From: a virus
Length of the DNA stretch: 40,771 nt
Direction: 5' to 3' (one strand)
Virus record (IMG/VR): IMGVR_UViG_3300005842_000027
Span: 1-40,771 of that record
Position 1 is the first letter of the stretch. Each line of letters begins with the position of its first letter. Positions 10,377 through 40,771 of the stretch are shown one piece after another. Below the pieces are notes generated by a model. It was not told the DNA's origin, did not search any database, and worked only from the letters and a program-made list of their open reading frames with translations. The position numbers and the translations under genes were made by a program.

Positions 10377-10386
10377 AGGACTCCGA

Positions 10387-10590
10387 GGCCTTCTCCCGGT
10401 TCCCAGGACCTGGTGCGCACCGGGTTGATCGAAAGGGACGGACCGGAGAAGGCCGCTTTGAATGGTGTGATTCGTAGCGCGGGGCAAGCGCCCCAACCGT
10501 GCGCATAGTCTCCCGATATCGGTTCTGATCCGATACAACTATGCGAGACGAAACACGCCACCCGGGGACGTCATACATGTGGGCGTCCCC
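10387..10590. ncRNA. structured non-coding region, possible RNA
   Basis: Three stem-loops follow in a row in a 356-base gap with no gene. (a) 10387-10399 pairs with 10443-10454 (GGCCTTCTCC-CGG/CCGGAGAAGGCC, one bulge), enclosing the palindrome GGTGCGCACC. (b) 10502-10509 pairs with 10538-10545 (CGCATAGT/ACTATGCG), enclosing a 6-bp stem TATCGG/CCGATA. (c) 10564-10570 pairs with 10584-10590 (GGGGACG/CGTCCCC). Strand is not certain. It may be an RNA regulator of the initiator gene downstream or a DNA-level replication element. Confidence 0.5.
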
Positions 10591-10698
10591 ACGCTGTTCA
10601 CTGTTCACTTGCTGGGAGCAAGGCTGCTTCCCTTTCCTTCCGAGTTTTTAACACAGCCGATGTAGCAACGGTTTTCTCCCCGTCGGGTGAAGGCGGGA

Positions 10699-10728
10699 CT
10701 CTCCATGTCTCGGAGAGAAGTCCGAGGC
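10699..10728 (+). promoter_or_regulatory. hairpin next to the initiator ribosome site
   Basis: CTCTCC (10699-10704) pairs with GGAGAG (10712-10717), 7-base loop, just before GAGG (10724-10727) and ATG 10733. It could modulate translation of the initiator. Confidence 0.4.
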
Positions 10729-10732
10729 TCTA

Positions 10733-11638: not shown

Positions 11639-11645
11639 CGATTTC

Positions 11646-11703
11646 TCATGAATGACTCATGAATGACTCATGAATCATTCATGAGAAATTCATGAGTCAT
11701 TCA
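11646..11703. repeat. iteron array, probable replication origin
   Basis: TCATGA starts at 11646, 11657, 11668, 11679 and 11690, exactly every 11 bp; TCACC at 11701 looks like a decayed sixth unit. Within it, 11660-11675 (TGAATGACTCATGAAT) and 11688-11703 are perfect inverted repeats of 16 bp. The array directly follows the initiator gene. Confidence 0.75.
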
Positions 11704-11708
11704 CCAGT

Positions 11709-11760
11709 AGATCAGATCAGTCTAAGTCAGATCAGATCAGTTTAGTTTAAGTCAGATCAG
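11709..11760. repeat. AGATCAG repeats with five GATC sites
   Basis: GATC occurs at 11710, 11715, 11730, 11735 and 11755 within repeats of AGATCAG and AAGTCAGATCAG. It directly adjoins the iterons, so a second initiator site or methylation-sensitive origin element is likely. An AT-rich segment follows at about 11820-11850. Confidence 0.65.
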
Positions 11761-11838
11761 TCCGCTGGCGCGGGACTCCGCTGCGCGGGATGGGAGGAAA
11801 AGTAATGCTTTTCGCTTTGAGGTTACCGACAATTTTTG

Positions 11839-11868
11839 TTGACTTCAAAATGGGCCGCAGATTAGAAT
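11839..11868 (+). promoter_or_regulatory. sigma70 promoter for the plus-strand small-gene operon
   Basis: TTGACT (11839-11844), 18-base spacer, TAGAAT (11863-11868); each box is one mismatch from consensus. It drives the genes from 11993 onward with a leader of about 118 bases. Confidence 0.75.
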
Positions 11869-11992
11869 CCGCGGCAATTGTAACAGTGAACTTAACCTCT
11901 GACCTCGCTCCAAAGGCTGTCTGTTTGCCCGAGTAGCGGGGTCAGATTTCTATCACCGCAAGGCCCGTGATGCAAATCCGAAACAGGAAGCC

Positions 11993-12163
11993 ATGACACA
12001 CCCATTCCGCTGCCCCATCTGCAAGAAGGCGACGCCGAGACTCTCCCATCGCTCGACGGACGGCAAGCTTGTTTGTCTCTGGTGCCTGCCGCCGGCGGAC
12101 GTGAAAAGGTATCCGCGCGGATGGCGGGAGAGGGTGTTGAAGGGATTGGAGGCGCGACGATGA
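11993..12163 (+). CDS. small zinc-ribbon protein
   Basis: 56 residues. CPICKK near the start and CLWC about 20 residues later give a four-Cys zinc site; the rest is basic (KRYPRGWRERVLKGLEARR). AGGAAG precedes ATG 11993, and the stop overlaps the next start (ATGA). First gene of a chain of tiny proteins downstream of the origin. Probably binds nucleic acid; function unknown. Confidence 0.72.
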   Translation: MTHPFRCPICKKATPRLSHRSTDGKLVCLWCLPPADVKRYPRGWRERVLKGLEARR

Positions 12164-12339
12164 AGAAACGCAACCAGCGCGTGACGTGGATAACGATGGG
12201 ACCAGCGCCACACTTCGCAACCTGCCAGCGCTGCGGCCAGCACATCGACACTCCGCTGTTGCCCATGCCGCTCAGAGCCTTTTCGAAGTACGCGGAGTAC
12301 GTGCTGGAGTTGCATCGATACTGCGAGGCGACGTCATGA
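12160..12339 (+). CDS. small CxxC protein
   Basis: 59 residues from ATG 12160 (ATGA overlap with the previous stop). It has CQRCGQH at about residue 21 and a later H-x-x-C (ELHRYC), enough for one zinc site. N-terminus is basic. Coupled to the genes on both sides. Function unknown. Confidence 0.65.
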   Translation: MKKRNQRVTWITMGPAPHFATCQRCGQHIDTPLLPMPLRAFSKYAEYVLELHRYCEATS

Positions 12340-12548
12340 CACACCGCGCGTCGGAACCGCGATGGCGTTATCTCGGGCACGGCTTCGCATTCGACAGCGA
12401 AACGGAAGAGCTGCACTTCTTCGTGAAGGATGCACTTGTGGACTGGGGACTGCCGGACACGCCGGAGAATCGAGTGGTGGTGGAAGAGGCGGCGAAGAAG
12501 GTGGTCGGTGAGATTTATCCGAACACTCGGATTGAGGAGGAGGAATGA
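12336..12548 (+). CDS. small acidic protein
   Basis: 70 residues from ATG 12336 (ATGA overlap). Mixed alpha/beta: RWRYLGHGFAFDSETEELHFF suggests a beta hairpin, followed by VVVEEAAKKVVGEIY and an acidic tail. No family recognised. Confidence 0.6.
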   Translation: MTHRASEPRWRYLGHGFAFDSETEELHFFVKDALVDWGLPDTPENRVVVEEAAKKVVGEIYPNTRIEEEE

Positions 12549-12838
12549 TGGCGAAGGAAAAGCAGAGGAAGCAACAAACAGCGTCGTTGCGAGTGGTATT
12601 TGAACAGGCGGGAAAGGGTGAGCGTGGCGAGTTGGTATTCACCGGCTCAACTGAATTTATTTCACAGAGCGCCGCGCCGCTGTCCTACTTGATCAGTCAC
12701 CTGCAGGCGACATTCGGCGCGGATCCGGACAATTGGATGAAGGCCGGAAACGAACTGACTGAGGCGTGGGAAGCGGCGAAGCTCGGCAAGAATTACGGCG
12801 GCGAGATTGTGCGCATGATCATTCACGAGGCCGAATGA
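12545..12838 (+). CDS. hypothetical protein
   Basis: 97 residues from ATG 12545. A basic first dozen residues, then a beta-rich middle (SLRVVFEQ, GELVFTGSTEFI) and a helical end (NELTEAWEAAKLGKN). Overlaps both neighbours by 4 bases. Function unknown. Confidence 0.65.
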   Translation: MMAKEKQRKQQTASLRVVFEQAGKGERGELVFTGSTEFISQSAAPLSYLISHLQATFGADPDNWMKAGNELTEAWEAAKLGKNYGGEIVRMIIHEAE

Positions 12839-13077
12839 CCTGCAAGCGATGCGCCGACACCGGCATACTGCGCCGCGCCTGCGAGCTGGTGTGGCTCGCC
12901 GACGAGTTGTGTTGTCGGTGCGAGGCGGGTGAGAAGTTGCGCGGGGTGATTGCGGGAGTGGTGAAAGCGTATGTGGATTCTCAACGCAGTGTGTCTGTAT
13001 CCCGAACCGCACTGTCCAAACTGCCGGGCGCGAAAGTGCGACACTTGCCCCGCGGTCGGTTGGGAATGCCTCGTTGA
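12835..13077 (+). CDS. small Cys-rich protein
   Basis: 80 residues from ATG 12835 (ATGA overlap). CKRCADTGILRRAC and CCRC suggest a zinc ribbon in the first 40 residues. The last 35 residues overlap the next gene in another frame for 107 bases and look less protein-like, so the functional protein may be shorter or a frame error may lie here. Confidence 0.55.
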   Translation: MTCKRCADTGILRRACELVWLADELCCRCEAGEKLRGVIAGVVKAYVDSQRSVSVSRTALSKLPGAKVRHLPRGRLGMPR

Positions 13078-13174
13078 TCGGGATGAGATACCGGATAAGG
13101 TCCGGGCCTCAGTGCCGAAGGGTGAGACGTTGACGATAGTTCAGACTTTCGTTTGCCGGGAGTGTAGGAGTTGA
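12971..13174 (+). CDS. small Cys-rich protein overlapping its upstream neighbour
   Basis: 67 residues from ATG 12971, no strong ribosome site. CPNCRARKCDTC, WEC and a final CREC give at least seven Cys, a clear metal-binding layout. It shares 107 bases with the 12835 gene in a different frame. The TGA stop overlaps the next TTG start. Confidence 0.55.
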   Translation: MWILNAVCLYPEPHCPNCRARKCDTCPAVGWECLVDRDEIPDKVRASVPKGETLTIVQTFVCRECRS

Positions 13175-13461
13175 GCGACGCCGCAACCCGCATCACAAAG
13201 TACACTTGCTCCAAGTGCGGCTACACCATGGACTACACGACCGGCGTGACTGGCGAGCACATCCCGGTCGAAGGCGACTTGAGTATCTGTCTGAAGTGCG
13301 GCGACGTGACATGCTTCACGGCCGGGCTTGAAGGCGTGCGCGAGATCCCGCCCGACGAGTGGATCACGATTCGGCGGGAGCATCCGGAAGAGTGGGCGAA
13401 GGTTCAGCACGCGCGGGCCCTTATCAGGGAGCGCAGACGCCGGGGAGATTGGATCAAGTAA
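13171..13461 (+). CDS. zinc-ribbon protein
   Basis: 96 residues from TTG 13171, overlapping the previous stop. CSKCGY and CLKCGDVTC are two CxxC knuckles, followed by PDEWITIRREHPEEWAKVQHA and a basic tail. Likely a nucleic-acid-binding or adaptor protein. Stop TAA overlaps the next ATG by one base. Confidence 0.65.
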   Translation: MSDAATRITKYTCSKCGYTMDYTTGVTGEHIPVEGDLSICLKCGDVTCFTAGLEGVREIPPDEWITIRREHPEEWAKVQHARALIRERRRRGDWIK

Positions 13462-13841
13462 TGCCCATCGACCCTTCCAACTACCCCGCCAACTGGCGCG
13501 GCTTCTCGCTCCACATCCGCCACGGCCGCGCCCGCGATCGCTGCGAATGCCGGGGCGAGTGCGGCACTGATCACGGCGGGCGATGCCGCGCTATCAACGG
13601 GCAGCGGAAGTTTTATACGGTGGGCGGGAGTGTGATCTTTTCAACGGTGTGGCTTTCGACCGGGCATCTGTGGAAAGACGCTTGTAGTTGTGAAGAGCGG
13701 TGCGCGATCGCGTCTCACGTGAAGGCGGTCTGTCAATTTTGCCATTTGAATTACGACAGACCCGCTCACCTGGTCAACGCGCGCCGGACGAGGCAGGCAC
13801 GAAAGGATGCGCGGCGTCCGCTGCTGGTGGGAGTAGAGTGA
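13461..13841 (+). CDS. HNH-endonuclease-like protein
   Basis: 126 residues from ATG 13461. CECRGECGTDHGGRC is followed by a beta hairpin, then STGHLWKDACSCEERCAIASHVKAVCQFCHLNYDRPAH and a basic RRTRQARK tail. This is the treble-clef arrangement of a widespread phage HNH-like family, with the H of GHLW and the late N/H residues as the catalytic candidates. The usual D/N-H pairing is not ideal, so cleavage activity is uncertain. It could nick phage or host DNA, or assist packaging. Confidence 0.72.
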   Translation: MPIDPSNYPANWRGFSLHIRHGRARDRCECRGECGTDHGGRCRAINGQRKFYTVGGSVIFSTVWLSTGHLWKDACSCEERCAIASHVKAVCQFCHLNYDRPAHLVNARRTRQARKDARRPLLVGVE

Positions 13842-13906
13842 TGGCTGAAGACGAAATTAGGGAGCTGAGGGATGGGATTCAGGAGAGAGATGGAAGGCGG
13901 GAGTGA
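13841..13906 (+). CDS. 21-residue acidic peptide
   Basis: ATG 13841 to TGA 13904-13906, sharing bases with the HNH-like stop and the next start. Sequence is charged and helical (EDEIRELRDGIQERDGRRE). Very short, but the stop/start overlaps fit the operon. Confidence 0.4.
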   Translation: MAEDEIRELRDGIQERDGRRE

Positions 13907-14127
13907 TGGCGGAAAAGATTGAACTCAGCGAACGCGACCGTAGCAGGTTCACAAACAAACTGCGCGCGTCTAGCGAAGCCGCGAACGACTGCATAGAGGC
14001 TCTCGAGGCCGAGGACGATGAAGCCTTCCTGCTGGCCTACCTGATTTACTCAATGATGTGTAGCTCGATGGACAGAGACATCAAGCCGATCACACTGCGA
14101 GCTATGGCGCCCAGGAAAGAGGTTTGA
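13903..14127 (+). CDS. small helical protein, last gene of the plus-strand operon
   Basis: 74 residues from GTG 13903 or 73 from ATG 13906. Acidic, helical (SSEAANDCIEALEAEDDEAFLLAYLIYSMM). No recognised family. It converges on the late minus-strand operon; the 73 bases between (14128-14200) show no clear terminator. Confidence 0.6.
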   Translation: MMAEKIELSERDRSRFTNKLRASSEAANDCIEALEAEDDEAFLLAYLIYSMMCSSMDRDIKPITLRAMAPRKEV

Positions 14128-14200
14128 GATGGCGGCACCCGGACGCGCGGAGACTTCAACGAAAGTAATCCTGCCCGCGCGCCAGGTGTCGCCTTACTGC

Positions 14201-14563
14201 TTAGGCCTGCTCGGGCAACAGCTCGTCAACGTTCTGCAGCGCCGTGCCTGCCTCGCTCACTGCACCACCCACCTCGAGAAGCTTGGACTTCAGCTCTTCG
14301 AGGGTGACGGTGGGGTTGTTGCCGATGAACGCAGTCAGATCAGATCCGATCTTTGCAATCTCCACTCCCTGCGCGCCGATAGCGGTTTTGATGTCCGATA
14401 CCTGCGAGGTCAACGCGTCAATGTCAGCTTGTGTTGGCATAGTCTTTTGAATCTCCCTTAAGGTTTGTTGTGTAAGGATCAGCCTGGTAGCGATTCTGGA
14501 CGTTACTACTTCGGCAAAGTCCAGTCGCTCGATGATGGAATCGAGTTTGTCACTGTCAGTCAT
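14201..14563 (-). CDS. coiled-coil protein, last gene of the late operon
   Basis: 120 residues, almost entirely heptad-like helix (IERLDFAEVVTSRIATRLIL; ALTSQVSDIKTAIGAQGVEI). An internal Met at residue 42 (MPTQADIDALTSQV) could be an alternative start. No signal peptide. Placed after the lysis genes. Similar small coiled-coil proteins accompany phage tail or lysis genes, but a role cannot be fixed. Confidence 0.65.
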   Translation of the reverse strand: MTDSDKLDSIIERLDFAEVVTSRIATRLILTQQTLREIQKTMPTQADIDALTSQVSDIKTAIGAQGVEIAKIGSDLTAFIGNNPTVTLEELKSKLLEVGGAVSEAGTALQNVDELLPEQA

Positions 14564-14571
14564 AGGGAAAT

Positions 14572-14661
14572 CTATTCGTTATTGTTGCCGCCGAGTGCGA
14601 CGAGCAGAATCCACCCGACGCAGAGCGCCAGGATCGCGATCGCGGCGATGTAGCAGATCAC
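14572..14661 (-). CDS. 29-residue single-span membrane peptide
   Basis: GTG 14661 to TAG 14572-14574. Nearly all hydrophobic (ICYIAAIAILALCVGWILLV), ending in GGNNNE. GTG overlaps the TGA of the preceding membrane protein (GTGA), the same arrangement used elsewhere in this operon. May assist lysis or simply be a membrane microprotein. Confidence 0.55.
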   Translation of the reverse strand: MICYIAAIAILALCVGWILLVALGGNNNE

Positions 14662-14822
14662 TGAAACGGATCCAGAGTTTCGGGTGTAGCGCGCAGCCAC
14701 GCGACGAAGAGCAGCAGGCCGACGCCGATGAGCAGCAGATGGATAACCGGGCCGCCCACGCCGGTGAGCCAGCCCGCAAGCCAGAGGATTGAAAGTACGA
14801 TGACCGCTATCCAGAGGAGCAT
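14658..14822 (-). CDS. small two-span membrane protein, DUF5670/Lmo0937-like
   Basis: 54 residues from ATG 14822; an upstream start (14849) would overlap the previous gene. LLWIAVIVLSILWLAGWL and HLLLIGVGLLLFVAWL are two membrane helices separated by a short GVGGPV turn, the pattern of the small Lmo0937/DUF5670 family. Lying in the lysis region, it could act as a holin-like or accessory membrane protein. Confidence 0.65.
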   Translation of the reverse strand: MLLWIAVIVLSILWLAGWLTGVGGPVIHLLLIGVGLLLFVAWLRATPETLDPFQ

Positions 14823-14826
14823 CGCA

Positions 14827-15525
14827 TCACTTCTTAATCGCGTAAGCAATCGCCACGACTACACCGCCGAGCGTCACCATCGCCATGCCCACCATCAAAA
14901 TAAGGCCAATCGCCGCGACGACATAGCCCCACATTTTAGTCGCGCCTTCGCCGGAACCCTGCGCGGTGTTCGAGCGGATGGAAAGCGACCGCACTTCACG
15001 GAGCGCCTCGGTCAGCGCCGGGTCAACAACCTGCTGCTTGCCCTTCCCTTCCGATTGCGCGAGCTCCACCGCGCTGAGTCTCTTGTTTACTTCGCCCATC
15101 GAATTCGCAAGCGACGTGGCCTGCGTTTGGGCGGTGGTCGCCACCTGAGCGCGAAGTGTTTCGGCCGTTGTGTTGGCGGTTGAACTTATCGTTGCGAGAG
15201 CGCTCAGAAACTGAGCGGTCATCTTCGACACGTCTTCGCGGTCTACCTGTCGAATCGAATTGAGCCGCGCGGATTCGGCGTCCCGAAGCAAGGTCTGAAA
15301 TCTCTCCCGAAGCTCGCCTGTTTCTTTCTGGTGCGATATCCTGGCTTCGTTGAGTTGCTGGGTAATGGAGTGGATCTTGTCCTGATGCACCGCCGCCGAC
15401 TCAGCGAGCGCCTTTACATTCTCTGTCGGATCTATGACCGCGCCGCCGAACGCATCAATGCCCATGCCGATGCGCCCGTAGCCATCCCTTTGTTTCGCTC
15501 TTCGTGTGCGGTTTTTATAGCTCAC
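14827..15525 (-). CDS. coiled-coil protein with C-terminal membrane anchor
   Basis: 232 residues. Basic N-terminus (KNRTRRAKQRDGYGR), long coiled coil at about 40-190, and a C-terminal hydrophobic segment from about 198 to 229 (WGYVVAAIGLILMVGMAMVT; GGVVVAIAYAI) long enough for one or two spans. Tail-anchored topology. ATGA overlap with the upstream lysis gene. Could be a lysis or membrane-associated structural factor. Confidence 0.65.
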   Translation of the reverse strand: MSYKNRTRRAKQRDGYGRIGMGIDAFGGAVIDPTENVKALAESAAVHQDKIHSITQQLNEARISHQKETGELRERFQTLLRDAESARLNSIRQVDREDVSKMTAQFLSALATISSTANTTAETLRAQVATTAQTQATSLANSMGEVNKRLSAVELAQSEGKGKQQVVDPALTEALREVRSLSIRSNTAQGSGEGATKMWGYVVAAIGLILMVGMAMVTLGGVVVAIAYAIKK

Positions 15526-15983
15526 TGCTTACTTCCCAGCACGAATCCCACGACCAGCGCGACACCTGCGAGTACCTGCCAAAACCTGGTTTTCAGATTC
15601 GCCGTCGCCAGTTGCTTCTCCGCCTGCGCCATCTGCTTGTCGTAGTTCGCGCGCAACTCTGAGACGAGCGCCTCGGCCTGCGTGCGTGCTACCGTCGCCG
15701 CTTCCCATTTGGCATTCGCCTTGAACAGCGCATCGACTTGTTCAGCCTGCGTTGAGTTGACGGCCTTCAACTCGGCAACTTGCTTCTGGAGCAGCACCTC
15801 TTTCTCTCGAGCGAACTTCAGCTCGAGGACGGCGGACCTGCATTCCTCCAGGATAACTTTCTGTTGGGCGCTACTCTGGACAGACGGCTTTTGCGAAGCC
15901 TGCCGCGCGTAGCTCGAGACAGAGCCGCCGAAGGCAATCGTCAGGAGTAGCACAGTCGCCAAGATCCGATTTAGCTTGTTCAT
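15522..15983 (-). CDS. secreted coiled-coil protein, spanin-like without lipobox
   Basis: 153 residues from ATG 15983. Signal peptide (NKLNRILATVLLLTIAFGGS, likely cut after SYA), a long coiled coil (about 40-125), then a C-terminal membrane span (VLAGVALVVGFVLG). Its first 113 bases overlap the end of the i-spanin-like gene in another frame, the Rz/Rz1 arrangement, but no lipobox Cys is present, so it is not an ordinary o-spanin. A membrane-spanning unimolecular spanin analogue is possible. Confidence 0.55.
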   Translation of the reverse strand: MNKLNRILATVLLLTIAFGGSVSSYARQASQKPSVQSSAQQKVILEECRSAVLELKFAREKEVLLQKQVAELKAVNSTQAEQVDALFKANAKWEAATVARTQAEALVSELRANYDKQMAQAEKQLATANLKTRFWQVLAGVALVVGFVLGSKQ

Positions 15984-16281
15984 AATTTGTTCCCGCCTGC
16001 TCGATCTTCGCTCCCAGCGCCGCCACGTTGCGATTACCCTGCTCGACTGCAGCAACCAGCGCCTGAGCCTTCATCGCCTCCTCACGCGCGGCCAGTTCAC
16101 TGGCGTGTGCGACTCCCAGCTGCTGCTGGTACTGATCGACGATGCGCGCGTTGTCGGCTTTCAGGGACGTGAGTTTTGCGGCGTGATACTTGCCCGCGCC
16201 CCAGAGGGACACGAAGAGAACGCAGAGGATCCCGGCGGCAATCCACGCGCGGCGCGGTGTGATGAGTTCTGGGATAGTCAT
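15871..16281 (-). CDS. i-spanin (Rz)-like protein
   Basis: 136 residues from ATG 16281 (ATGA overlap with the methyltransferase stop). N-terminal membrane anchor (AWIAAGILCVLFVSLWGAG at about 11-29), then a coiled coil (KADNARIVDQYQQQLGVAH...), and a Cys-rich C-terminus CATPDDCLRRLCLELRAAG as in Rz-like proteins. Expected to span the periplasm and fuse membranes at lysis of a Gram-negative-type host. Confidence 0.68.
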   Translation of the reverse strand: MTIPELITPRRAWIAAGILCVLFVSLWGAGKYHAAKLTSLKADNARIVDQYQQQLGVAHASELAAREEAMKAQALVAAVEQGNRNVAALGAKIEQAGTNYEQAKSDLGDCATPDDCLRRLCLELRAAGFAKAVCPE

Positions 16282-16832
16282 GCTGCCCTCGCTCGTGCGA
16301 TCTTCAGGCGCACGTCGGATCTGACCTCGTTGCCCCACACATGCCAGCCGGGCCGCGATTGCCGTGCGAATAGTTCAAGCCGTCGCTCGTCTGAAATGCT
16401 TTCAATCAATTCGTAACTGCCGGGCGGCTTGCGCGAATGATTGCCGGGCGTGTTCTGCGGCCAGTGGTAGACATTGGGAACGTATCGCGCCGCGTTGAAT
16501 TGACACTTACCCTTGTAGCCGAACAGCAGATGCTCAGTCCGGTGGATGAAGTAGTTGCCGATTCCCGATTGCTTCACCCATGTTATCGGAGCGAGAAACT
16601 TAAAGCCCCATGCGTCTATCACGTCGAAGCCGTCGCGCAGGAATCTGTTCGTCACCCACAGCCACAGATGGCAGCCGGTTTCAGCGAGCTCGCCAACCGG
16701 CATGGCTTTGATCTGATCCACGGTGAGTGTCGGATAGGGCAACGAGGTCGGTCTGTGCTGCTTGGTTTTCAGATACGCGTTGCTCATCTGCTGCGGCCAC
16801 GGCGGGTCAGCCAGAATGGTTCGGTAGATCAC
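16278..16832 (-). CDS. MT-A70 family DNA adenine methyltransferase
   Basis: 184 residues. ADPPW at 8-12 is the catalytic DPPW motif of MT-A70-type N6-adenine methyltransferases; GCHLWLWVTNRFL, the AWGFKFLAPITWVK segment and HLLFGYKG complete the family pattern. It likely methylates phage DNA and protects it from host restriction. Unusual place: inside the lysis block, coupled by ATGA to the holin-like gene above and the spanin-like gene below, so expression would be late. Confidence 0.88.
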   Translation of the reverse strand: MIYRTILADPPWPQQMSNAYLKTKQHRPTSLPYPTLTVDQIKAMPVGELAETGCHLWLWVTNRFLRDGFDVIDAWGFKFLAPITWVKQSGIGNYFIHRTEHLLFGYKGKCQFNAARYVPNVYHWPQNTPGNHSRKPPGSYELIESISDERRLELFARQSRPGWHVWGNEVRSDVRLKIARARAA

Positions 16833-17134
16833 TCGTCCGTCTCCGGAGCGGCCGCCGGCGCGGACTCACTCACCTTGCTTTCAGTCGCGCTCCCTTTCGG
16901 CGTCGTCACTTTCCGGGTCTCAACAATCGAGGTCACTTTCTCGAACGCTGCCTTGCCGATGTTGCCCGCGACGAGTCCCAGAATCAGCGCGCCGAGCCCC
17001 AGGGGCACGTCCTGCATCGCGCCGAGCTTCAGACTCAGGTATGTCCACACGCCCATCACCAGTGCGATGGGGATGAGCAGCGCAAGCCGCATCGACGATG
17101 GCTTGCCGTAATGATCGAGAAAGAATTTCTTCAT
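16829..17134 (-). CDS. holin-like two-span membrane protein
   Basis: 101 residues: FFLDHYGKPSSMR, then two hydrophobic spans (LALLIPIALVMGVWTYLSL and LGLGALILGLVAGNIG), then a polar tail. Size, topology and place ahead of spanin-like genes fit a class II holin. Coupled by ATGA on both sides. No endolysin was recognised next to it. Confidence 0.6.
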   Translation of the reverse strand: MKKFFLDHYGKPSSMRLALLIPIALVMGVWTYLSLKLGAMQDVPLGLGALILGLVAGNIGKAAFEKVTSIVETRKVTTPKGSATESKVSESAPAAAPETDE

Positions 17135-17613
17135 ACGCGCACCGGATCGGACTGGCGGGAACTTCGAAGAGTACGGATAAGGGCTTTGAGTTTCGATTCG
17201 CCCGGCGGCAGATCGTCGCAGGCGGCGAAGTATGCTGAGATAACCTGAAGTTCAAACCACACGGCGCGCGGTGGTAATAGGTCGAATGGGAGAATGATCA
17301 GACAAGTCAGGAACAGAAACACACGGGAGGCCCGATCATTTAACTTTAGTGGATTCATCGTTGGCTCGGCTGCGGTTGTGGTGTGATGCCAGAACGAACG
17401 AAGGAAGCGCAAGAACAGAAAGAACACGACTAGGATGGCTAACCCGCTCCATTGCCCCTGTGCAGACCTGACGCGCACAAAGTCGAGTACCGCGAGCAGC
17501 GCACTCCACCGCTCCCACGTCGCCGAGGTCAGCCCGACAGTCCGCTGAGTCCAATGGCTGAACCTCTCGAACCTGTCGAGCAGCCATTCGTCGAGACGGA
17601 TGATCAGTTTCAT
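17131..17613 (-). CDS. membrane protein, unknown function
   Basis: 160 residues from ATG 17613, chosen for its ATGA overlap with the 45-residue upstream gene; the frame is open to 17814 but that part is Arg-rich shadow sequence. Two membrane segments (GLAILVVFFLFLRFL and RVFLFLTCLIILPFDLL). Part of the lysis/membrane block. Confidence 0.6.
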   Translation of the reverse strand: MKLIIRLDEWLLDRFERFSHWTQRTVGLTSATWERWSALLAVLDFVRVRSAQGQWSGLAILVVFFLFLRFLRSFWHHTTTAAEPTMNPLKLNDRASRVFLFLTCLIILPFDLLPPRAVWFELQVISAYFAACDDLPPGESKLKALIRTLRSSRQSDPVRV

Positions 17614-17747
17614 AGGCCGATTATCTCCGCAGCACGACGCACGAGCGAACGCCCGACGAGCCACACGCACGGGAAGGCCAGCACGAGCGCGATGCCTGCA
17701 AGAAAGCCAACACACACGCCGACGGCGAGCCAGAACACGTCGCTCAC
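17610..17747 (-). CDS. 45-residue single-span membrane protein
   Basis: GTG 17747 to TGA 17610-17612. One membrane helix with basic C-terminal end (FWLAVGVCVGFLAGIALVLA, then WLVGRSLVRRAAEIIGL). GTG overlaps the upstream TGA (GTGA) and its stop overlaps the next ATG (ATGA), so it is knitted into the operon. Confidence 0.6.
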   Translation of the reverse strand: MSDVFWLAVGVCVGFLAGIALVLAFPCVWLVGRSLVRRAAEIIGL

Positions 17748-17962
17748 AGCGCCACTCTCGATAGCTTGTGATGGCCGATGCGGAGTGACGGCGTGCGCCC
17801 GGCTTCAATCTCACGCCTCTGCCGCTCGGCGACTACATCCAGGTAGACGCTTGCGACCGCGTAGCCGGCGGAGTCGAGCAGGTCGATGGCGTGCACGGCA
17901 ATGGTATCGTTTGGGAAGTGGAGCTCGAGAAGCTGCTCGATTATTTGTTCGCGTTCAGTCAA
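17744..17962 (-). CDS. small helical protein, unknown
   Basis: 72 residues, helical (TEREQIIEQLLELHFPNDTI; AERQRREIEAGRTPSLR), soluble. It separates the fibre-like gene from the membrane/lysis genes. Function unknown. Confidence 0.6.
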   Translation of the reverse strand: MTEREQIIEQLLELHFPNDTIAVHAIDLLDSAGYAVASVYLDVVAERQRREIEAGRTPSLRIGHHKLSRVAL

Positions 17963-17973
17963 AGCGAAATCAT

Positions 17974-19950
17974 CTACGTGAACTCTTCGTCGAAACTGCC
18001 GGAGGGCCCATCCGAATCGCTGCGGATGAACTCCCGGGGATAGTGCGGATTGTCAGGCGGGAAGCGGTCGCCGGAGTATGTAAACCGATGCGTCGGGGAA
18101 TCGTATGCAGCGTCGGTAACTATCGCCGCGGCGCGTCCGGTCGAATCAGTCTTTCGCCAGACGTAGCGTTTGACTCCGTTCACGCTGACCGCTGCGACGA
18201 GCGATCCCGCCGGCGTGTTTGATTGAGTGACTGTCAGCTTGCCGTTTGCTGACCACCACTGACCCCAGCTGAGAAACCCGGAACGAGAGACACCTTCCGG
18301 ATTGTTGTACGGGTAGACCGGGAAAGTCTTATCAAAACTACCGTCTGCTGTCTCCGCGTAGTCTTCGAGCTCACCCCGGGCCGTGTCGTATCCCTCACCC
18401 GGAATGAAGTAGTCGGTGTAACCGGCGCTCGCCTCCGCCCACATCGCCAGGGCCCGTAGCGTATCGGCATTCTCAGTGTCAGGCAGAACAATCAGACTCT
18501 CGTAATGGCTGGTCTCAAGGGCGCCGTTCACCGCCTCGGTCGGGCCGAAGTCAGTCGACAGCGTAAGGTCGACTTCATTAGCCAGGTGGAGCTCGGCGAA
18601 CGTTATAGCGGACTGGGAGAACTCGGCGCCCTCAGCCGGGAACACTGGTCTAATCAGTGCCTGTTTGAAGCCGGTCAGCGAGAAGTGTTTCATTAACTGC
18701 CCGGTCTGGCCGAGGTCATCGCGGGGCGTGTACGCCGCGAAGTCTTCTCCGATGTTGGTTGTCTCGGGTTCCGGCGCGGTCTCCTGGTCGACCGTTATGA
18801 CTTCGAAGCCATCCGCGCCCGCGTCGACCCGCACACCGGGATCGTCGAGCACGTAACAACCAATAACTTCATAGCGCCAACCGTTTCCATCCTCATCCAC
18901 GTGATCCCCGGTAAACGGATCGTATGTTTCAACGGAGTAAGTGCTGGTGTGAACAGTCGGCAGAGGGTCATAGAATCCAGGTTCGGGCCAGGTTGCTCCC
19001 GGATACGGCGGCGTTCCGCCGTCAACCGTAGTAGGAGCATCGCAACGATGAGACAGTTGTACCGGTTCTGGCGCGGTAGGCTGCGGCGGAGAAGTGGGCG
19101 GCCACGGATGCGGGAAATAGCCTCCATCATCTACAGGCGGACCGAACCAGTTAAACTCGGCCGGCCTCATAACGTCCCCTTCCAGGTTCCCCTCACCGCT
19201 ATACCTCGGCGTCGGATGCGCCGGACTTTCCCACCAGAAGACATTCCACCCGTCCCACTCAATCGTGAAGTGCCACCACTGGGGCGCAAGCATGATGTAG
19301 ACATCCTGGTTGAACTTCGTCCCCGCTTTGATCTTCGGAAGCGTTGTCTCTTCAGCGTCGAACGCCGGGTCGGTCGTGACTTTGAAGTTCACCGTGTCCG
19401 CAACCGCAAACGACTCGAAGTAGACGCTCGTCGAGTCAACCGCCAGGTCGTACTGCCCAGGCAGATCTGCGGGCACCAGAACGCCAGGCTGCCAGTAGTC
19501 GACCGCGTAGCCGATGACCGGGGCGGGCGATAGGCGGTCCTCTACCGGCCCGTAGTCGGGTAGTTGCTGGTAGCCGAACTCTTCAGCCGCTTCGAAATCC
19601 AGCGCGGCTCTTGCGAGTGCAATGTCCTCTCTGGCTGCCCCGTCATCAGGCAGCACGAGCGAATCGAAACTTGCTGCGCGTGTAGTTGCCGACGGTCTGC
19701 CCTTCCACCTGTCGGTTGCTCCAAGCGGATAGGAATGCATCCGCGTGATTACATCTTCGGGATCCTTGGAATCGAGCCCGATGGTCACGCCGTAGGAGAG
19801 CGGCGGATCCTGTGTTTCTGCTTTCGGACGGGGCAGCGGCCAGCGTGACGGGATGCTGCGATAGTCGGTATCGCCCGGGTCGGTGCTACGGAAGCGGACC
19901 GTGACCTGAGTCCACAGGTTCTCTATATTGTCGCCTGCTTCCGGCATCAC
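17974..19950 (-). CDS. large tail-tip or receptor-binding structural protein
   Basis: 658 residues, rich in Pro, Trp, Tyr and acidic residues, with an almost all-beta look and repeated aromatic stretches (WWHFTIEWDGWNVFWW; FGPPVDDGGYFPHPWPP). No enzymatic motif seen. Located after the tail hub and before lysis genes, where receptor-binding proteins usually lie. The final third (GKLTVTQSNTPAGSLVAAV) resembles a carbohydrate- or fibre-type beta domain. Specific family not recognised. Confidence 0.6.
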   Translation of the reverse strand: MMPEAGDNIENLWTQVTVRFRSTDPGDTDYRSIPSRWPLPRPKAETQDPPLSYGVTIGLDSKDPEDVITRMHSYPLGATDRWKGRPSATTRAASFDSLVLPDDGAAREDIALARAALDFEAAEEFGYQQLPDYGPVEDRLSPAPVIGYAVDYWQPGVLVPADLPGQYDLAVDSTSVYFESFAVADTVNFKVTTDPAFDAEETTLPKIKAGTKFNQDVYIMLAPQWWHFTIEWDGWNVFWWESPAHPTPRYSGEGNLEGDVMRPAEFNWFGPPVDDGGYFPHPWPPTSPPQPTAPEPVQLSHRCDAPTTVDGGTPPYPGATWPEPGFYDPLPTVHTSTYSVETYDPFTGDHVDEDGNGWRYEVIGCYVLDDPGVRVDAGADGFEVITVDQETAPEPETTNIGEDFAAYTPRDDLGQTGQLMKHFSLTGFKQALIRPVFPAEGAEFSQSAITFAELHLANEVDLTLSTDFGPTEAVNGALETSHYESLIVLPDTENADTLRALAMWAEASAGYTDYFIPGEGYDTARGELEDYAETADGSFDKTFPVYPYNNPEGVSRSGFLSWGQWWSANGKLTVTQSNTPAGSLVAAVSVNGVKRYVWRKTDSTGRAAAIVTDAAYDSPTHRFTYSGDRFPPDNPHYPREFIRSDSDGPSGSFDEEFT

Positions 19951-20315
19951 GCACCTACTCTGTCGAGGAAATAAAGCAACGCTTCATTTGACTCAAGCAC
20001 GCTGTCCTCGTCTCTCGGGTCTGTCGCGCTGACTCCCCAGGTATCCCCGCCATGGTCGGTTGGATTCTTCGAGACTCCGATAACCGCGCGCCCGAAAGTT
20101 TGGTCATCCGGATGCACGGGTTCGGTCCAGGTGCCATTAGCGTAGCGATACAGGGTGGAGATATCGGCCACCGTAACTCTGCACTGGGCGTCGGTGTAGC
20201 GGTCGCCGGGCAGCTCGGGCCCGCCGCCGGGTTTCTTTTCGTCGGGCTTGGCGGGTGGCTTCTCTTTCGACTTCGGGCGCCTGCGGGCGGAGATTGTTAT
20301 GCGGGTCTTACTCAC
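19947..20315 (-). CDS. tail-tip region hypothetical protein
   Basis: 122 residues if started at GTG 20315, near AGAAG; the frame is open to 20408. Basic, Pro/Lys-rich first 40 residues (RRRPKSKEKPPAKPDEKKP), then a compact domain (DAQCRVTVADISTLYRYANG ... ALLYFLDRVGA). ATGA overlap with the large fibre-like gene suggests a partner or adaptor of it. The 20316-20467 stretch holds only a possible 27-residue frame. Confidence 0.55.
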   Translation of the reverse strand: MSKTRITISARRRPKSKEKPPAKPDEKKPGGGPELPGDRYTDAQCRVTVADISTLYRYANGTWTEPVHPDDQTFGRAVIGVSKNPTDHGGDTWGVSATDPRDEDSVLESNEALLYFLDRVGA

Positions 20316-27545: not shown

Positions 27546-27551
27546 TGCGGG

Positions 27552-27767
27552 GTGAAGTGTCCGAATTGTATTTGCTGGCAGAGCCGCGTACTGGATATGC
27601 GTCCGTCCGAATCCCGGAACAGACGACGGCGCGAGTGCCTCGGCTGCGGGCATCGCTTCACGACTTACGAGCGCCTGGCGATTGCTCCGCCTGACCTGGA
27701 GAATCGTGTCATCGAGGCGCTCGCGACTGCCGGCAACACGATCAAGAAAGCTCTAAACGAAAACTGA
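27552..27767 (+). CDS. NrdR-like zinc-ribbon protein without ATP-cone (moron)
   Basis: 71 residues from GTG 27552. CPNC at 3-6, SRVLDMRPSESRNRRRRECLGCGHRFTTYERLAI matches the N-terminal zinc ribbon of the ribonucleotide-reductase repressor NrdR almost feature by feature, but the ATP-cone that follows in NrdR (about 100 residues) is missing, replaced by ENRVIEALATAGNTIKKAL. It can bind DNA or interfere with host NrdR. Encoded against the late operon between tube and terminator genes, overlapping the latter's stop by 15 bases. Confidence 0.78.
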   Translation: MKCPNCICWQSRVLDMRPSESRNRRRRECLGCGHRFTTYERLAIAPPDLENRVIEALATAGNTIKKALNEN

Positions 27768-28250
27768 ATTCTCGACGTTGAGCTCGAATCGGCCGAAGTG
27801 AATCAAACTAGCATCCGAGCCCGTCCCGTCCAGACTCCCGATCGTCATGTCATCCGTCGACTGCAGCAGCAGGTGTCGCACCAGGTTCCCGAGCCCGAGA
27901 TCTCGCGTCACGCGCAGCACTGCAGCCAAATCTGAGATCGCGATCGCGTTTGCCGCTTCACTGGTAACGCCGTCGACGCTGCGTCGAAGGTATGGCTTGA
28001 AAGTCTCAATCTTAAAGCCGAGGGTCTGAATGTTCTCGCAGGCGTTTGATGTCTCAACTTCATTGAGACGCTGCAAACAAATGTTGACGCCATGGCAGAT
28101 CCGGCGCGGGTGCAGAGACTCCAGCACGGCTGCGATTTCCGGGTCATCCTCTGCGGTCCTGGAGTCGATCATCACGTAGCCGATGGTTTCGAGGCCGAGA
28201 GATTCGACGAGGGTTTTCAGCGCGGCTTTGATAGTTGCTTGGTCAGCCAC
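27753..28250 (-). CDS. tail terminator-like protein
   Basis: 165 residues, alpha/beta (TIKAALKTLVESLGLETIGY ... LRVTRDLGLGNLVRHLLLQS). Size and place immediately before the tail tube gene suit a tail terminator or tail completion protein that caps the tube. No diagnostic motif. Overlaps the upstream SprT-like stop by 8 bases. Confidence 0.55.
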   Translation of the reverse strand: MADQATIKAALKTLVESLGLETIGYVMIDSRTAEDDPEIAAVLESLHPRRICHGVNICLQRLNEVETSNACENIQTLGFKIETFKPYLRRSVDGVTSEAANAIAISDLAAVLRVTRDLGLGNLVRHLLLQSTDDMTIGSLDGTGSDASLIHFGRFELNVENSVFV

Positions 28251-31032: not shown

Positions 31033-33039
31033 TCAAGTGAACGTAGCCGCGCCGACCACTTCGCCGACCCATTGAGTAGCTGAAATCGCGGTGATGACGA
31101 GCTTCGAGCCAACCGCATCAAGCGTGACGTTGCCCGCCGCCGCCGTGACCGAAGTGCCGACTCGGATAGTCGTGGACGCGCCTGCTGTGATCGTCACAAC
31201 CTGATTTGCGTCTCTGTAGAATTCGTATGTGAGGTTCTTCACCGCAGTTGGCAGCACGAAGTTGACCCCGCCCGCAGCGCCCGTGTTGGTGAAGAGCGTG
31301 GACTTGTCGGCGGTGAGTACTGTGTAGTTCGAAGTCTTCGCGGTGACGACACGGCCAGCGAGCAGGGAGCCGAGAGTGCCAGCGGTGCCGGTAGTGGCTT
31401 CGATGACCCCAGCGGCGTTCCGAGAGAATGCCGTGTCGATTGCCGCAACGCCGGTGCCGCTGCCCCATCCGTAAGAATGCGTACTCGGTAATGCAACAAA
31501 CGTCGCGTTAAACCCAAAGGTGCTTACTCCATTATTTGTGGCGATTATTCTCTGATTAGATTCACCTGAGAATCCAATCCTCGTGCTTGCTAGTTCAAAT
31601 AACAACGAGGGGCTTGCCACGCTCCCGGTTGGCAGAACTAATGCACCCGTGCCCTTCGGCGTAATAGCGATGTGGATATTCGTCGCACTCCCCGCTGCCT
31701 GATGCGTTATCACCCCCGCCGTCTGTACCACGCTTTCATACTGCGTGGTGTTGCCGACGAACGAAGACGTAAACGGCAACGTCGCCGAGCCGAGATTGAT
31801 TGTCCCTGCCGCCACTGGGAGTAGAGAGGTGTTGATCGCGACTCCCGAAAGATTGTCTAGCGCTACTGTCGCGCCTGCCGCTGCCGGAGTCGCAAACTCA
31901 AGCGCGGTCGCTCCCGCATTCACCCTCACAACCTGAAGGGCGCTGCCGAGCGCTGAAAGGCCGGTACCGCCGTTTGCGATGGGCAGGATGCCTGACACAT
32001 CGGCGGTGAGTGAGATGGCGGTTGCCGCGTTGCGAGGAGTGAAGCCGAGCGCCGTTGTCACATCCCCGCTCGTGAGCACCACTGCCCCGGAGCGCGTGTT
32101 GAAAGTGTTGACGGTAGTGGCAGCCGCGTCTTTCGGAGTGAAGCCGAGCGCGGTTGTAACGTCACCGGAAGTCAGCGTCACAGTGCCGCTTCTCGTGTTG
32201 AAAGTGTTGACTGTCGCTGCGGACGCGTCACGCTTGAGCCCGAGCGCCGTGTTGAGATCCGTCTGAGTCGAGAGAGTCCCGGTGATGCCGCCCCAGACGC
32301 TGGGCCCTGCTGGTCCGGTCGGTCCCGTGGCACCGGTTGTTCCCTGAATGCCTTGAATGCCCTGTGAGCCTGTGGTTCCGGTGATTCCCTGAATTCCTTG
32401 GATACCGGGTTCGCCCTGCGGACCGGGCGTGAGTTCGATTCCGTCAATCTGATCCTGAATCGAGCTTGTTGCGTCCAGAAACGCGAGAGTCTCGGCTGAG
32501 ACTCCGGAGACCGACACAAAGCCTGTGATGGGATCTGACACCAGCACGAGGCCCGGTGTGAGACCCGTCGCGCCGCCGGGTATGGTGATTTGCGCGATGC
32601 CGCCGACTTCAACAACCGTGACTCCGGACCCCACGAAGTTCAGCGTGGAAATCAGATCAGCCAGCGCGACACCTTCATCCTTGATGGTCACGCCTTCGAT
32701 GGCCGGTTGGACCGACGCTGTGACCAGGTCCTCTAAGTTCGCGGTTGCGCTGTCGGGTACCTGAAGATCCGGATTCGCTCTGAAGTCGATCGAGCCCGCC
32801 GTCGCTTCAGCGAAAAGACGAATGGTTGAAAGCCGCGGCGCAAGAATCGTGATGTTCTTACCGGTAATCGGGTCCGGCTCGGTCGTCAGGAACTTGATGG
32901 CGACATCGCGCACAACCTGCCCGCTCTTGCGCGTGCGCTGCAGCGTGATGGCGATCCCGGCAGGCGCAAGTTGCCCTGCCCCGTCGTATAGAACGCCGGT
33001 GATAGTGCAGACCGGAAGTGTGAGGTCAGGAGTCGGCAT
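31033..33039 (-). CDS. tail fibre-like protein with collagen-like and 33-residue repeats
   Basis: 668 residues. An N-terminal beta domain (about 1-120), then a Gly-x-y collagen-like stretch (about 203-247: GPQGEPGIQGIQGITG...), two copies of a 33-residue unit (NTFNTRSG, LTSGDVTTALGFTP; nucleotide period 99 bp near 32036 and 32135), ANGGTGLSALG, and a long beta C-terminus. These are standard fibre elements. It lies between coat and neck genes, an unusual place for a host-recognition fibre, so a head or neck appendage (whisker/head fibre) is a good alternative. Confidence 0.78.
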   Translation of the reverse strand: MPTPDLTLPVCTITGVLYDGAGQLAPAGIAITLQRTRKSGQVVRDVAIKFLTTEPDPITGKNITILAPRLSTIRLFAEATAGSIDFRANPDLQVPDSATANLEDLVTASVQPAIEGVTIKDEGVALADLISTLNFVGSGVTVVEVGGIAQITIPGGATGLTPGLVLVSDPITGFVSVSGVSAETLAFLDATSSIQDQIDGIELTPGPQGEPGIQGIQGITGTTGSQGIQGIQGTTGATGPTGPAGPSVWGGITGTLSTQTDLNTALGLKRDASAATVNTFNTRSGTVTLTSGDVTTALGFTPKDAAATTVNTFNTRSGAVVLTSGDVTTALGFTPRNAATAISLTADVSGILPIANGGTGLSALGSALQVVRVNAGATALEFATPAAAGATVALDNLSGVAINTSLLPVAAGTINLGSATLPFTSSFVGNTTQYESVVQTAGVITHQAAGSATNIHIAITPKGTGALVLPTGSVASPSLLFELASTRIGFSGESNQRIIATNNGVSTFGFNATFVALPSTHSYGWGSGTGVAAIDTAFSRNAAGVIEATTGTAGTLGSLLAGRVVTAKTSNYTVLTADKSTLFTNTGAAGGVNFVLPTAVKNLTYEFYRDANQVVTITAGASTTIRVGTSVTAAAGNVTLDAVGSKLVITAISATQWVGEVVGAATFT

Positions 33040-36818: not shown

Positions 36819-37007
36819 ATGGCCTGTCAAGATTGCGACGACGCACAGGAAGCCGGCACGGGGGCCTATTACTTCCGATGGAAGAACGCGAACGTTGCTT
36901 TCATCGGATGCCGCCAACACGTGCAGGAGATCTTCGTGGTGTTAAGGGAGCATGTCTCTAAGCCGCAAGAGCCGGATCCTTCACCGCCGGCTGCGGGGCA
37001 AGGTTGA
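36819..37007 (+). CDS. small Cys-rich protein, plus-strand moron
   Basis: 62 residues. CQDC near the start, GCRQH later and the surrounding strands (GAYYFRWKNANVAFIGC) suggest a zinc-binding domain; Pro-rich tail. Encoded against portal and head genes, overlapping the portal's last 50 bases. No Shine-Dalgarno. Function unknown. Confidence 0.65.
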   Translation: MACQDCDDAQEAGTGAYYFRWKNANVAFIGCRQHVQEIFVVLREHVSKPQEPDPSPPAAGQG

Positions 37008-38433
37008 GCGCCTGCTCGCCTATTAGCATCTTTGCCTTTTCAGGATTGAACCCCGGCTCCAGCAACTCAGCGCGTCCCATCACCCACCAGAGCTGCTCAA
37101 CCGGGAGCTGACTTGAGAGCACTATATTCGAGAACGCCGTGAGCATCGCGCTGTCGAGCTTCAACCGCTGGAAGTCTTTGTTAGCCGCGAACAGCTTGGA
37201 GTCATCCGCGTTCCGGCCCGCGTCTTTGAGCGTCAGGAAAACAGCGATCATCCAGAGAACCTGGTTCATCGCGTCATCGAGGCCTTCGACCATTCCGCCA
37301 AGCTCTGAAATCTGTGAGCTGTCGTCAATTGCACTTTGCGTTGCCGTGACTTCAACGTCTGATCTTGGCGCGAGAAGCTCAAGGCCCATCACGCCCATCA
37401 ACCGTTCGGTGTCGAGCTGCTCTTGTCGGCCGCTCTCGACTGCCACGCCCGCAGGCTCAAGATAGATGGCGTCACAGGCCGGACGTTCACCCATATCGAG
37501 TGCGGCATTCGGGCCAATCTCAACCCCTGCGTTCTCCGCGTCACGTCCGAAGAAGATGATCAACGGCACCCGGCAACGATGCAGGATGTTCTTTTGATCG
37601 CTCCATCCCTGATAGTGCAGGATGTTCAACCGCGCAAGGCCGAGGAGCGCGGGCTTCGATTTCCAAAATCCAGTGCGCCGCGTGTAGATCGGCACCAGGG
37701 GAATGAAATCCACCGTGGACGTGCTGCCGAAGTCGTGGACGTAGGTTTCTTCGCCGCCGCCTTCGGTCTCGCGCACGCGCCACACTTGCCAGTGCAGGAA
37801 CCCGGCTTCCAGGTACAGCACGCGCCACTGCTCAACTTCCTTTTCCGCGAACCTGCCAACCTGTTCTTTAACGCACTCGTAGATCGTGGCCTGCGTCGCG
37901 ACTATTTCACCCTTCGCGTTCTTGCCCTCGATCCAGTTCCAGACCTGATCTTTCGTGACGATGTGCAGGTACGGTCGGCGGCCTACCTCATCCGCCTTCG
38001 TCGCAACCTGGGGATCGAGCGGCCGCGCCATGTCCACGAACAGGAAACTGTGTCCGTCGAGCAGCGCCTGATCGAATGCGCGCTTGGCGACTACCTTCAG
38101 GTCGTTGCCCTGCAGGTCGATGTTGTCTTCGATCGCTTCGATTTCGGGTGCGAGGCCCTCACCGATTACCGGCGGCTTGCGAAACACCATGCCCACAAGC
38201 GCCGCTTTACATTTGGAAGTTCCGTCCCACCAGCCGCTGCGGTTCAGGCGGATCTCGTATGCTTCGGCCGACTCCGCGGGCTCCTGCGGTAGGTAGGTAT
38301 GGCGCGCGGCTTTGATGCGCGTCTCGCCCTCTTCCACATCGCGCACGAGCTGCAGGTCGGCTTCCTGCGCTTTGTAGTCGATGTTTTTGTAGCGTGGATC
38401 TGCGCCGGATTCTAGGTTGTTTGGTTCGGTCAT
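36958..38433 (-). CDS. portal protein (DUF4055 type)
   Basis: 491 residues. ARHTYLPQEPAESAEAYEIR, CKAALVGMVFRKPPVIGEG and DGHSFLFVDMAR mark the DUF4055 portal family; a long C-terminal helical region follows (ELGGMVEGLDDAMNQVLW). Forms the dodecameric DNA gate with TerL. Start ATG 38433 faces a plus-strand gene only 19 bases away. Confidence 0.85.
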   Translation of the reverse strand: MTEPNNLESGADPRYKNIDYKAQEADLQLVRDVEEGETRIKAARHTYLPQEPAESAEAYEIRLNRSGWWDGTSKCKAALVGMVFRKPPVIGEGLAPEIEAIEDNIDLQGNDLKVVAKRAFDQALLDGHSFLFVDMARPLDPQVATKADEVGRRPYLHIVTKDQVWNWIEGKNAKGEIVATQATIYECVKEQVGRFAEKEVEQWRVLYLEAGFLHWQVWRVRETEGGGEETYVHDFGSTSTVDFIPLVPIYTRRTGFWKSKPALLGLARLNILHYQGWSDQKNILHRCRVPLIIFFGRDAENAGVEIGPNAALDMGERPACDAIYLEPAGVAVESGRQEQLDTERLMGVMGLELLAPRSDVEVTATQSAIDDSSQISELGGMVEGLDDAMNQVLWMIAVFLTLKDAGRNADDSKLFAANKDFQRLKLDSAMLTAFSNIVLSSQLPVEQLWWVMGRAELLEPGFNPEKAKMLIGEQALNLAPQPAVKDPALAA

Positions 38434-38451: not shown

Positions 38452-38778
38452 GTGGTGACGGGGCTAAATCTGGTCTGCGCGATTCTGGTAGTGCTTGGCT
38501 GCGCTTTCAATATAGGTATCGCGTTCTGGATTAGGCTCTTGCTCAGACAGGAGCGCGAGGTTGCGCGCCTGATGGATGAAACCTATCAAACGTTCAAAAA
38601 GCTCGTGGACAGTTTCGGCGAGGTAGTCAGGCAGATGCCTGAATCAGTCGTTGGCAATCTGAAGGTGAGCATTGACTGTCCGGTGTGTCACCAGCCGATC
38701 ATTGCCGAGCCCGGTGTACCGACGCAGATACCTCACGCCGAATGCCGAGTCGGTCGCCCGCGCTCGTGGAATAACTAA
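38452..38778 (+). CDS. membrane-anchored CxxC protein, plus-strand moron
   Basis: 108 residues from GTG 38452. One N-terminal membrane helix (LVCAILVVLGCAFNIGIAFW), then a coiled coil (QEREVARLMDETYQTFKKLV), then CPVCHQP and a later HAEC that can hold zinc. Divergent from the portal and convergent with the next gene, overlapping its stop by 4 bases. Possibly a lysogen-expressed envelope protein. Confidence 0.65.
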   Translation: MVTGLNLVCAILVVLGCAFNIGIAFWIRLLLRQEREVARLMDETYQTFKKLVDSFGEVVRQMPESVVGNLKVSIDCPVCHQPIIAEPGVPTQIPHAECRVGRPRSWNN

Positions 38779-39101
38779 GCCGCCCGACTCTTCGGCGCGC
38801 GCACCTCGACAACAAGCTTCTTCCCGATCTCTTCCGGGTCGTGGTCAATCACCCACTCAGTAACCGCCTGCTCGCTCGATAGCTCAATCGCGCATGTCTT
38901 ATACGGCGGACAGTAAGTCTTCGGGAACTTCTCAACCGACAGATCGAAGCGCGACGACACGCGAGCCTTCGCTTCAACCGCCGCGATGAGGGTGGCTTCG
39001 AGCTCGTTACGCTCGGCCTTCAGTTCCTCCGCGTGCTTGTTGGCTTTGGTGTAGGCCTTCCGGAGTTTCAGGAGTTTGAGGATTGTTGACTGATTGATCA
39101 T
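38775..39101 (-). CDS. coiled-coil hypothetical protein
   Basis: 108 residues: helical N-terminal half (LLKLRKAYTKANKHAEELKA ...), then FPKTYCPPYKTCAIELS and an alpha/beta end. Lies between terminase and portal, so it could be a packaging accessory. No strong ribosome site at ATG 39101. Confidence 0.55.
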   Translation of the reverse strand: MINQSTILKLLKLRKAYTKANKHAEELKAERNELEATLIAAVEAKARVSSRFDLSVEKFPKTYCPPYKTCAIELSSEQAVTEWVIDHDPEEIGKKLVVEVRAPKSRAA

Positions 39102-39115
39102 GTTAGACTCGCGCC

Positions 39116-39206
39116 GAGGTGGCGGGTTAGCTCAGTCTGGCAGAGCACCGGATTATCGGGTTTCCGATAGGACGGAGGTCTATGGTTCAAATCCTTCCCG
39201 CCCCTC
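39116..39206 (+). other. tRNA-like element with abnormal middle
   Basis: Canonical parts: acceptor GGCGGG (39121-39126) pairs with CCCGCC (39197-39202), extended by GAGG/CCTC around one bulged T; D-arm GCTCAGTCTGGCAGAGC (39130-39146); T-loop GGTTCAAATCC. Not canonical: no 5-bp/7-base anticodon arm can be drawn; instead TATCGG-GTTT-CCGATA (39154-39169) forms a tetraloop hairpin, and the T-stem is mismatched. A TAGACT -10 box (39104-39109) predicts transcription from about 39116. It may be a decayed tRNA or a tRNA mimic. Confidence 0.6.
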
Positions 39207-39209
39207 ACA

Positions 39210-39380
39210 TCACTTGAAAAACGCGAGCGCCGCGCACTGGTACAGCACGACGAGCAGGCCGAACGCGAAGGCAATGCGGCCCGCTTCTTTCAGTTCCGAC
39301 TGCTCGGGCTTCCGCGCCGTTAAGTAGGCGCTGAGGCCGACGACGGCGACGATTAACGGAATGTAGCTTTGAGTTTGCAT
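39210..39380 (-). CDS. two-span membrane protein
   Basis: 56 residues from ATG 39380 (GAGAGAAA upstream; the open extension to 39521 lies in the terminase end). Two hydrophobic helices (YIPLIVAVVGLSAYL and IAFAFGLLVVLYQCAALAF) around a charged loop. Placed directly after terL, where a small holin-like or membrane accessory gene is possible. Confidence 0.6.
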   Translation of the reverse strand: MQTQSYIPLIVAVVGLSAYLTARKPEQSELKEAGRIAFAFGLLVVLYQCAALAFFK

Positions 39381-39472
39381 TGAATTTCTCTCGTGATAGT
39401 TTCCAGTGACATAAAGATCCGCTTTCCCTGCTTTAATAAGCCGCGCGCGAATGTAACCTTGTGCGCTGAAAC

Positions 39473-40771
39473 TTAAATAAGAACTTCGGACACCCCGAAC
39501 CTGCCGCGCTTCGTTGCGCACTTATACCTCACCGAATCCGCCTCGTGATCCTCGGACTTCGTGTCTGCGTCATCCAGAGTGTCGGGATCCCGCGGCAGAG
39601 TCGGTACCGTGCGAATGAAATGCCGGCAGGTATCAAACACAAACAGCCCCGGCTGCGGATCCTCAATGAAGTGCAGTGACGCCGTCATGCGCTTGCGGAT
39701 CTGCTCCCAGCCCTGGATCCGCGCGTTGTCGGCTCGCAACCAGGTCACGCCCTCTTTTTGCATGTCGATCGCGATGGACTGGCCCTTTTGATTCTCATTC
39801 CATATCGACGGATCCGCCGGGCCCGGGCGAACCTTCCAGCCCGACTTCTCTTCTTTTTCCTTGATGCCCCGGGCGACGTCGCGCGCGAGCATCTTGCAGC
39901 CCTCGTTCGCCTTACCGTTCCAGCCGTACCATTCGCGGATCAGGAAGAGAGTCCCGCGCGGATAGACGATCTTGTTGGGCGCCTCAGTCCCGTCTGACTC
40001 AGCCCACCAGCAAACAGAGAACGGCGCCGAACTGCCCCAGTCGAAAGATCGATCGATAAACCACGAAGGCGGGACGGCGAATGGCTTGAGTATGTGAGTC
40101 TGTGCGTGCCATAGGTCGTCGAACATTCCCCCCAGGTTCAGATCCCAGAGGCCGCCAAGCATCGCCTTCACGAGCTCCGGATCGTCGAGGCCTCGGAGGC
40201 GATCGGCGTAATCCGGATCCTCTTCGGCGAGTGTCGGGTTATCCTCGAGCAGCGCCGGAATGAACTGAGTGGAGAGCCCGCCTTCGGTCGGTGGCGCCAT
40301 CCAGATCTCGCCCGGCGGCGCCGGATCCACGAACAAGGCCTTAACCCAGTTGTGGCCGAGGCCTCCAGGGTTCGAACCGCAGATGATCCGAGGGAAGAGG
40401 CCGCGAAACTCCTCAGGCACCACAACGCCGGTCATTCGCAAGCGGGAGCGAATGAACGCGTATTGCGTTTTCGCGAAGTGGGTCAGCTCATCAATGAGCG
40501 CTAAGTGAATCTCCGTGCCCTGGATCTTCGAAAGATCCCGGGCCCTCGCTATCTGCGCGAGGAAGATTTTCGACCCGTTCAAGAACCCCTGCGACCCGTT
40601 TCTAAACGAGATCGTATGCTCGGAGTAGTTGATCTTGACCACCTTCGCGGTGATCCACTCAGCCAGCAGGGCCGGAAACCCGCGCGGCCCTTCCATGTGA
40701 TTGCGATAAAGGTCAGGGAAGGCGGACCGAAACAGGTAGATCTGCAGCCCTGGAATCGCGATCGCAAACGC
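39473..40771 (-). CDS. terL: terminase large subunit, C-terminal part (right-end allele)
   Basis: 432 residues, open at the right edge (starts inside AFAIAIPGLQIY). Walker B region LALIDELTHF, coupling motif around GSNPGGLGHNW, then the nuclease domain: RSFDWGSSAPFSVCWW with its first Asp, and near the end DDADTKSEDHEADSVRY with the last catalytic acids. Typical of headful or cos TerL of the Terminase_6 type. Bases 40278-40771 repeat 1-494 at about 85% identity; joined to the left part on a circle it gives about 471 residues. Confidence 0.92.
   Translation of the reverse strand, partial: AFAIAIPGLQIYLFRSAFPDLYRNHMEGPRGFPALLAEWITAKVVKINYSEHTISFRNGSQGFLNGSKIFLAQIARARDLSKIQGTEIHLALIDELTHFAKTQYAFIRSRLRMTGVVVPEEFRGLFPRIICGSNPGGLGHNWVKALFVDPAPPGEIWMAPPTEGGLSTQFIPALLEDNPTLAEEDPDYADRLRGLDDPELVKAMLGGLWDLNLGGMFDDLWHAQTHILKPFAVPPSWFIDRSFDWGSSAPFSVCWWAESDGTEAPNKIVYPRGTLFLIREWYGWNGKANEGCKMLARDVARGIKEKEEKSGWKVRPGPADPSIWNENQKGQSIAIDMQKEGVTWLRADNARIQGWEQIRKRMTASLHFIEDPQPGLFVFDTCRHFIRTVPTLPRDPDTLDDADTKSEDHEADSVRYKCATKRGRFGVSEVLI

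Follow-up and report, generated by a model that had tools for sequence, protein, structure and literature searches.

Results and discussion

The viral contig analysed here, IMG/VR record IMGVR_UViG_3300005842_000027 (40,771 bp, the whole of which is referred to as the window), is in our estimate, at a probability of about 0.92, a phage genome that closes into a circle at 40,277 bp, with an additional 494-495 bases of the terminase large subunit gene (terL) of a second strain. At 40,277 bp the genome is very probably complete, and circular, circularly permuted or concatemeric DNA may all fit a closure at this length. The phage is without a close annotated relative, yet near-identical copies of it are present in the viral contig collection. 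The nearest annotated TerL proteins (44-46%) are those of Acinetobacter phages such as SH-Ab 15497 and Salmonella phages such as LSE7621, a search of 50,697 phage records gave no TerL relative with more than 60% identity, and at the DNA level nothing close was found for 20001-40771 among phages or for 1-20000 among plasmids.

The overlap between the contig ends

The first and last 494 bases of the window (1-494 and 40278-40771) align in blastn in the same orientation, with no gaps over 494 positions, 75 mismatches and 84.8% identity (E 5e-158), and the overlap touches both contig ends exactly, as is required of a wrap-around. At an E-value threshold of 1e-3 the only other repeat found by blastn within the window is a 95-bp direct repeat at 32036-32229 (76%), which lies inside the gene of a tail-fibre-like protein with a collagen-like repeat (31033-33039, minus strand).

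Both ends encode terL, and the mismatches between the two stretches distribute over the codon phases as 53, 17 and 5. The copies differ in 64 of 164 codons, 48 of the 64 differences being synonymous, in agreement with the first-pass annotation, which had described a gapless overlap with about 75 mismatches, some 85% identity and many synonymous changes. The corresponding dN is 0.061 and dS 0.67, giving a dN/dS of about 0.09, and for each of the 16 amino-acid replacements at least one of the two variants is also present in the TerL of other viral contigs. The low dN as compared to dS and the predominance of synonymous changes indicate that both copies are natural alleles under purifying selection and not errors. 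Hypermutation as the source of the differences is ruled out by the same synonymous pattern. A linear phage genome with a genuine direct terminal repeat likewise fails as an explanation, since the copies are not identical, and with an identity of only 84.8% we are dealing with two alleles rather than the repeat of one molecule. The runs of identity at the ends of the overlap measure 35 and 23 bases, and a single assembler k-mer length was considered as the reason why the overlap ends where it does; this was dropped, since the longest identical run, of 38 bases, is internal to the overlap.

Closure of the genome across terL

The left end of the window (3-611, minus strand) holds the first 203 codons of terL and the right end (39473-40771, minus strand) the last 432. 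Within the left end, the first 39 codons (495-611, minus strand) include, in translation, a Walker-A-like GGAAGPGKS that occurs only once in the window, while 1-494 (minus strand) covers codons of about 40-203 in the version that we term allele A and is assigned to PHROG 979 and Pfam Terminase_6N. The same part of the gene is found at 40278-40771 (minus strand) as allele B, which we assign to a second strain and regard as a redundant tail of the contig. When the window is closed at 40277|1, the 3' part of terL (39473-40277, minus strand) and 1-611 combine into one open terL frame of 471 aa, and the gene order becomes the canonical one of terS, intact terL and portal, with the terminase small subunit at 611-1102 (minus strand; PHROG 6299, E 4e-13) and the portal protein downstream of terL at 36958-38433 (minus strand; PHROG 145, E 1.5e-93). 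The protein is like other TerL of PHROG 979 in being full-length with a Walker A and an IDE motif and in being encoded beside terS with the portal gene downstream.

A TerL search with the right-hand copy returned one close relative, the 7660-bp contig IMGVR_UViG_3300025936_000300 (L003), the next best match being at 57%. This independently assembled contig, which comes from another metagenome record, was compared with the window closed at 40277|1 and aligns over its full length (7661 columns, 99.78% identity), crossing the junction. It equals the window without mismatch at 38564-40276 and 1-3573, and thus over all of allele A, and it differs only at base 40277 and within 3574-3879; base 40277, a C in the window and a G in L003, is hence the sole mismatch from 38564 across the join to 3573 and the only one in the 3' part of terL. 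The terL of L003 is a single intact open frame, and a 24-mer of allele A matched L003 only among the viral contigs. Since L003 crosses the predicted join with allele A, it follows that 40278-40771, and probably 40277 as well, belong to allele B; on the alignment, the difference between the alleles probably starts one base before the overlap, with 40277 as the first base of strain B. The closed length of about 40.28 kb that had been predicted from the overlap is supported by the same contig, at 40,277 bp.

Some other features of the window may be mentioned. A sigma-factor-like gene (1940-2851, minus strand; PHROG 351, E 5e-59) is found near terS, and two integrase-family genes (PHROG 1) lie adjacent on opposite strands at 7032-7961 (plus) and 8393-9829 (minus). 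Short tandem repeats of 11, 22, 25 and 15 bp at 11645-11790 directly follow a replication-initiation-like gene (10733-11638, plus strand), making this stretch a candidate origin with iterons.

Strain variation in near-identical contigs

Differences between the window and near-identical records are found in patches. L093 is identical to the window over 10.5 kb (10,500 bp), and L085, a 13,929-bp contig from another metagenome record, is 99.91% identical, with all 12 differences falling inside the 502 bp of 27549-28050; nine of these changes are in the ORF at 27753-28250 and all nine are synonymous. L095 differs from the window at 2787 and within 3406-3879. In this last patch substitutions and small indels are seen relative to both L003 and L095, while the surroundings are nearly identical; no long gene lies in the patch, and an inverted repeat is found within it at 3530-3574. 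The first 189 bases of the reverse complement of L095 depart from the window below 1734, with 74% identity over 73 bases near 1689-1754, and read as another variant or a chimeric end of the same phage. The clustering of differences in L085 and L003 was reached in none of 20,000 random draws of evenly spread mutations. The patches stem either from recombination of tracts or from the assembly changing over from one strain to another, and as both sources need more than one strain, strain variants must exist in the population.

No separate contig of strain B turned up in the viral collection, whether in the TerL search or with an exact 20-mer of allele B, which had no match there. Scans with the major capsid protein, portal, integrase and sigma factor returned only near-identical contigs (L085/L094, L093, L003 and L095) and no strain B, and a scan with a 658-aa protein gave no matches. 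Among the fetched loci, many of which are parts of contigs only, there is none whose two ends overlap in a similar way.

Origin of the end overlap

Three explanations had been left side by side in the first-pass annotation, of which the joining of two strains during assembly gains from L003 crossing the join, the decisive observation here, whereas tandem prophages and a duplicated terL lose from the fact that terL is single and intact in L003. If two related prophages lay in tandem, or if the DNA were a mixed concatemer of co-infecting phages, the contig would reproduce a continuous piece of a single molecule, from the terL of one phage to that of the next, and a single molecule carrying both alleles would indeed yield the observed overlap; the two integrase-like genes furthermore suggest that the phage may be temperate, as tandem prophages would have it. 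The right-hand copy must however then equal strain A, as represented by L003, at 38564-40276 and diverge only thereafter, the start and end of the contig at matching places would be due to chance, and L003 has a simple arrangement for allele A, so that we consider such a molecule very improbable. Tandem copies were not noticed in seven related loci from bacterial genome contigs, nor was any host sequence in the window. We give still less credence, indeed next to none, to a true duplication of terL within one phage genome: two partial copies are present in one record, but both are cut by the contig ends, the Walker A part is single in the window, and L003 carries a single, intact terL at the canonical position.

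We infer from the overlap, the codon pattern and the A-type junction of L003, which are all directly observed, that strain B was present in the sample and that the overlap arose in the assembly step. The sample would have held at least two strains or variants about 15% apart in the 5' half of terL, and an assembler with no single path through this variable stretch would have left the circle open, allele A staying on the left end and, after one circuit, 494-495 bases of allele B being placed on the right end. Strain variation is known to keep circular contigs from being closed in assembly (PMC7111523, PMC10914622), and the end overlap is an ordinary result of such variation. In the case described in PMC7111523 a strain-variant region is similarly located at the closing point, where each variant can complete the circle and the assembly halts because the continuation is not unique, but here both variants remain attached, one at each end of a single contig. 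The overlap is also like the direct-terminal-repeat wrap-around of circular metagenomic viral contigs, in that both ends represent the same region and the genome closes once one of the copies is trimmed, but at 85% it is not exact and tests for exact matches are blind to it.

Within the two-strain explanation, B may be a recombinant that is otherwise like A and has acquired a short tract of terL through gene conversion between related phages, in which case the overlap would represent a bubble on a shared backbone. The abrupt change from identity to 15% divergence at 40277, the equally patchy differences among the other near-clonal contigs and the presence of a gene for a RecE-like exonuclease speak for this, but it is based on about 494 bases of B, and a jump of the assembler between two strains that differ throughout would give the same picture; we regard a recombinant B as somewhat short of an even prospect. 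More tentative still, and in our view rather on the doubtful side, is the wider suggestion that recombination with relatives exchanges short tracts in this population (the 5' half of terL, the ORF at 27753-28250 and the patch at 3406-3879), the remainder of the genome being clonal across metagenomes, and that one of these exchanges, in terL, is what is seen at the contig ends.

The two-strain explanation means that the record can be corrected, in that its last 494-495 bases should not be taken for a second terL. The very probable completeness of the 40,277-bp genome would escape tests for exact end repeats, and inexact end overlaps could reveal more complete viral genomes among those now classed as linear fragments.
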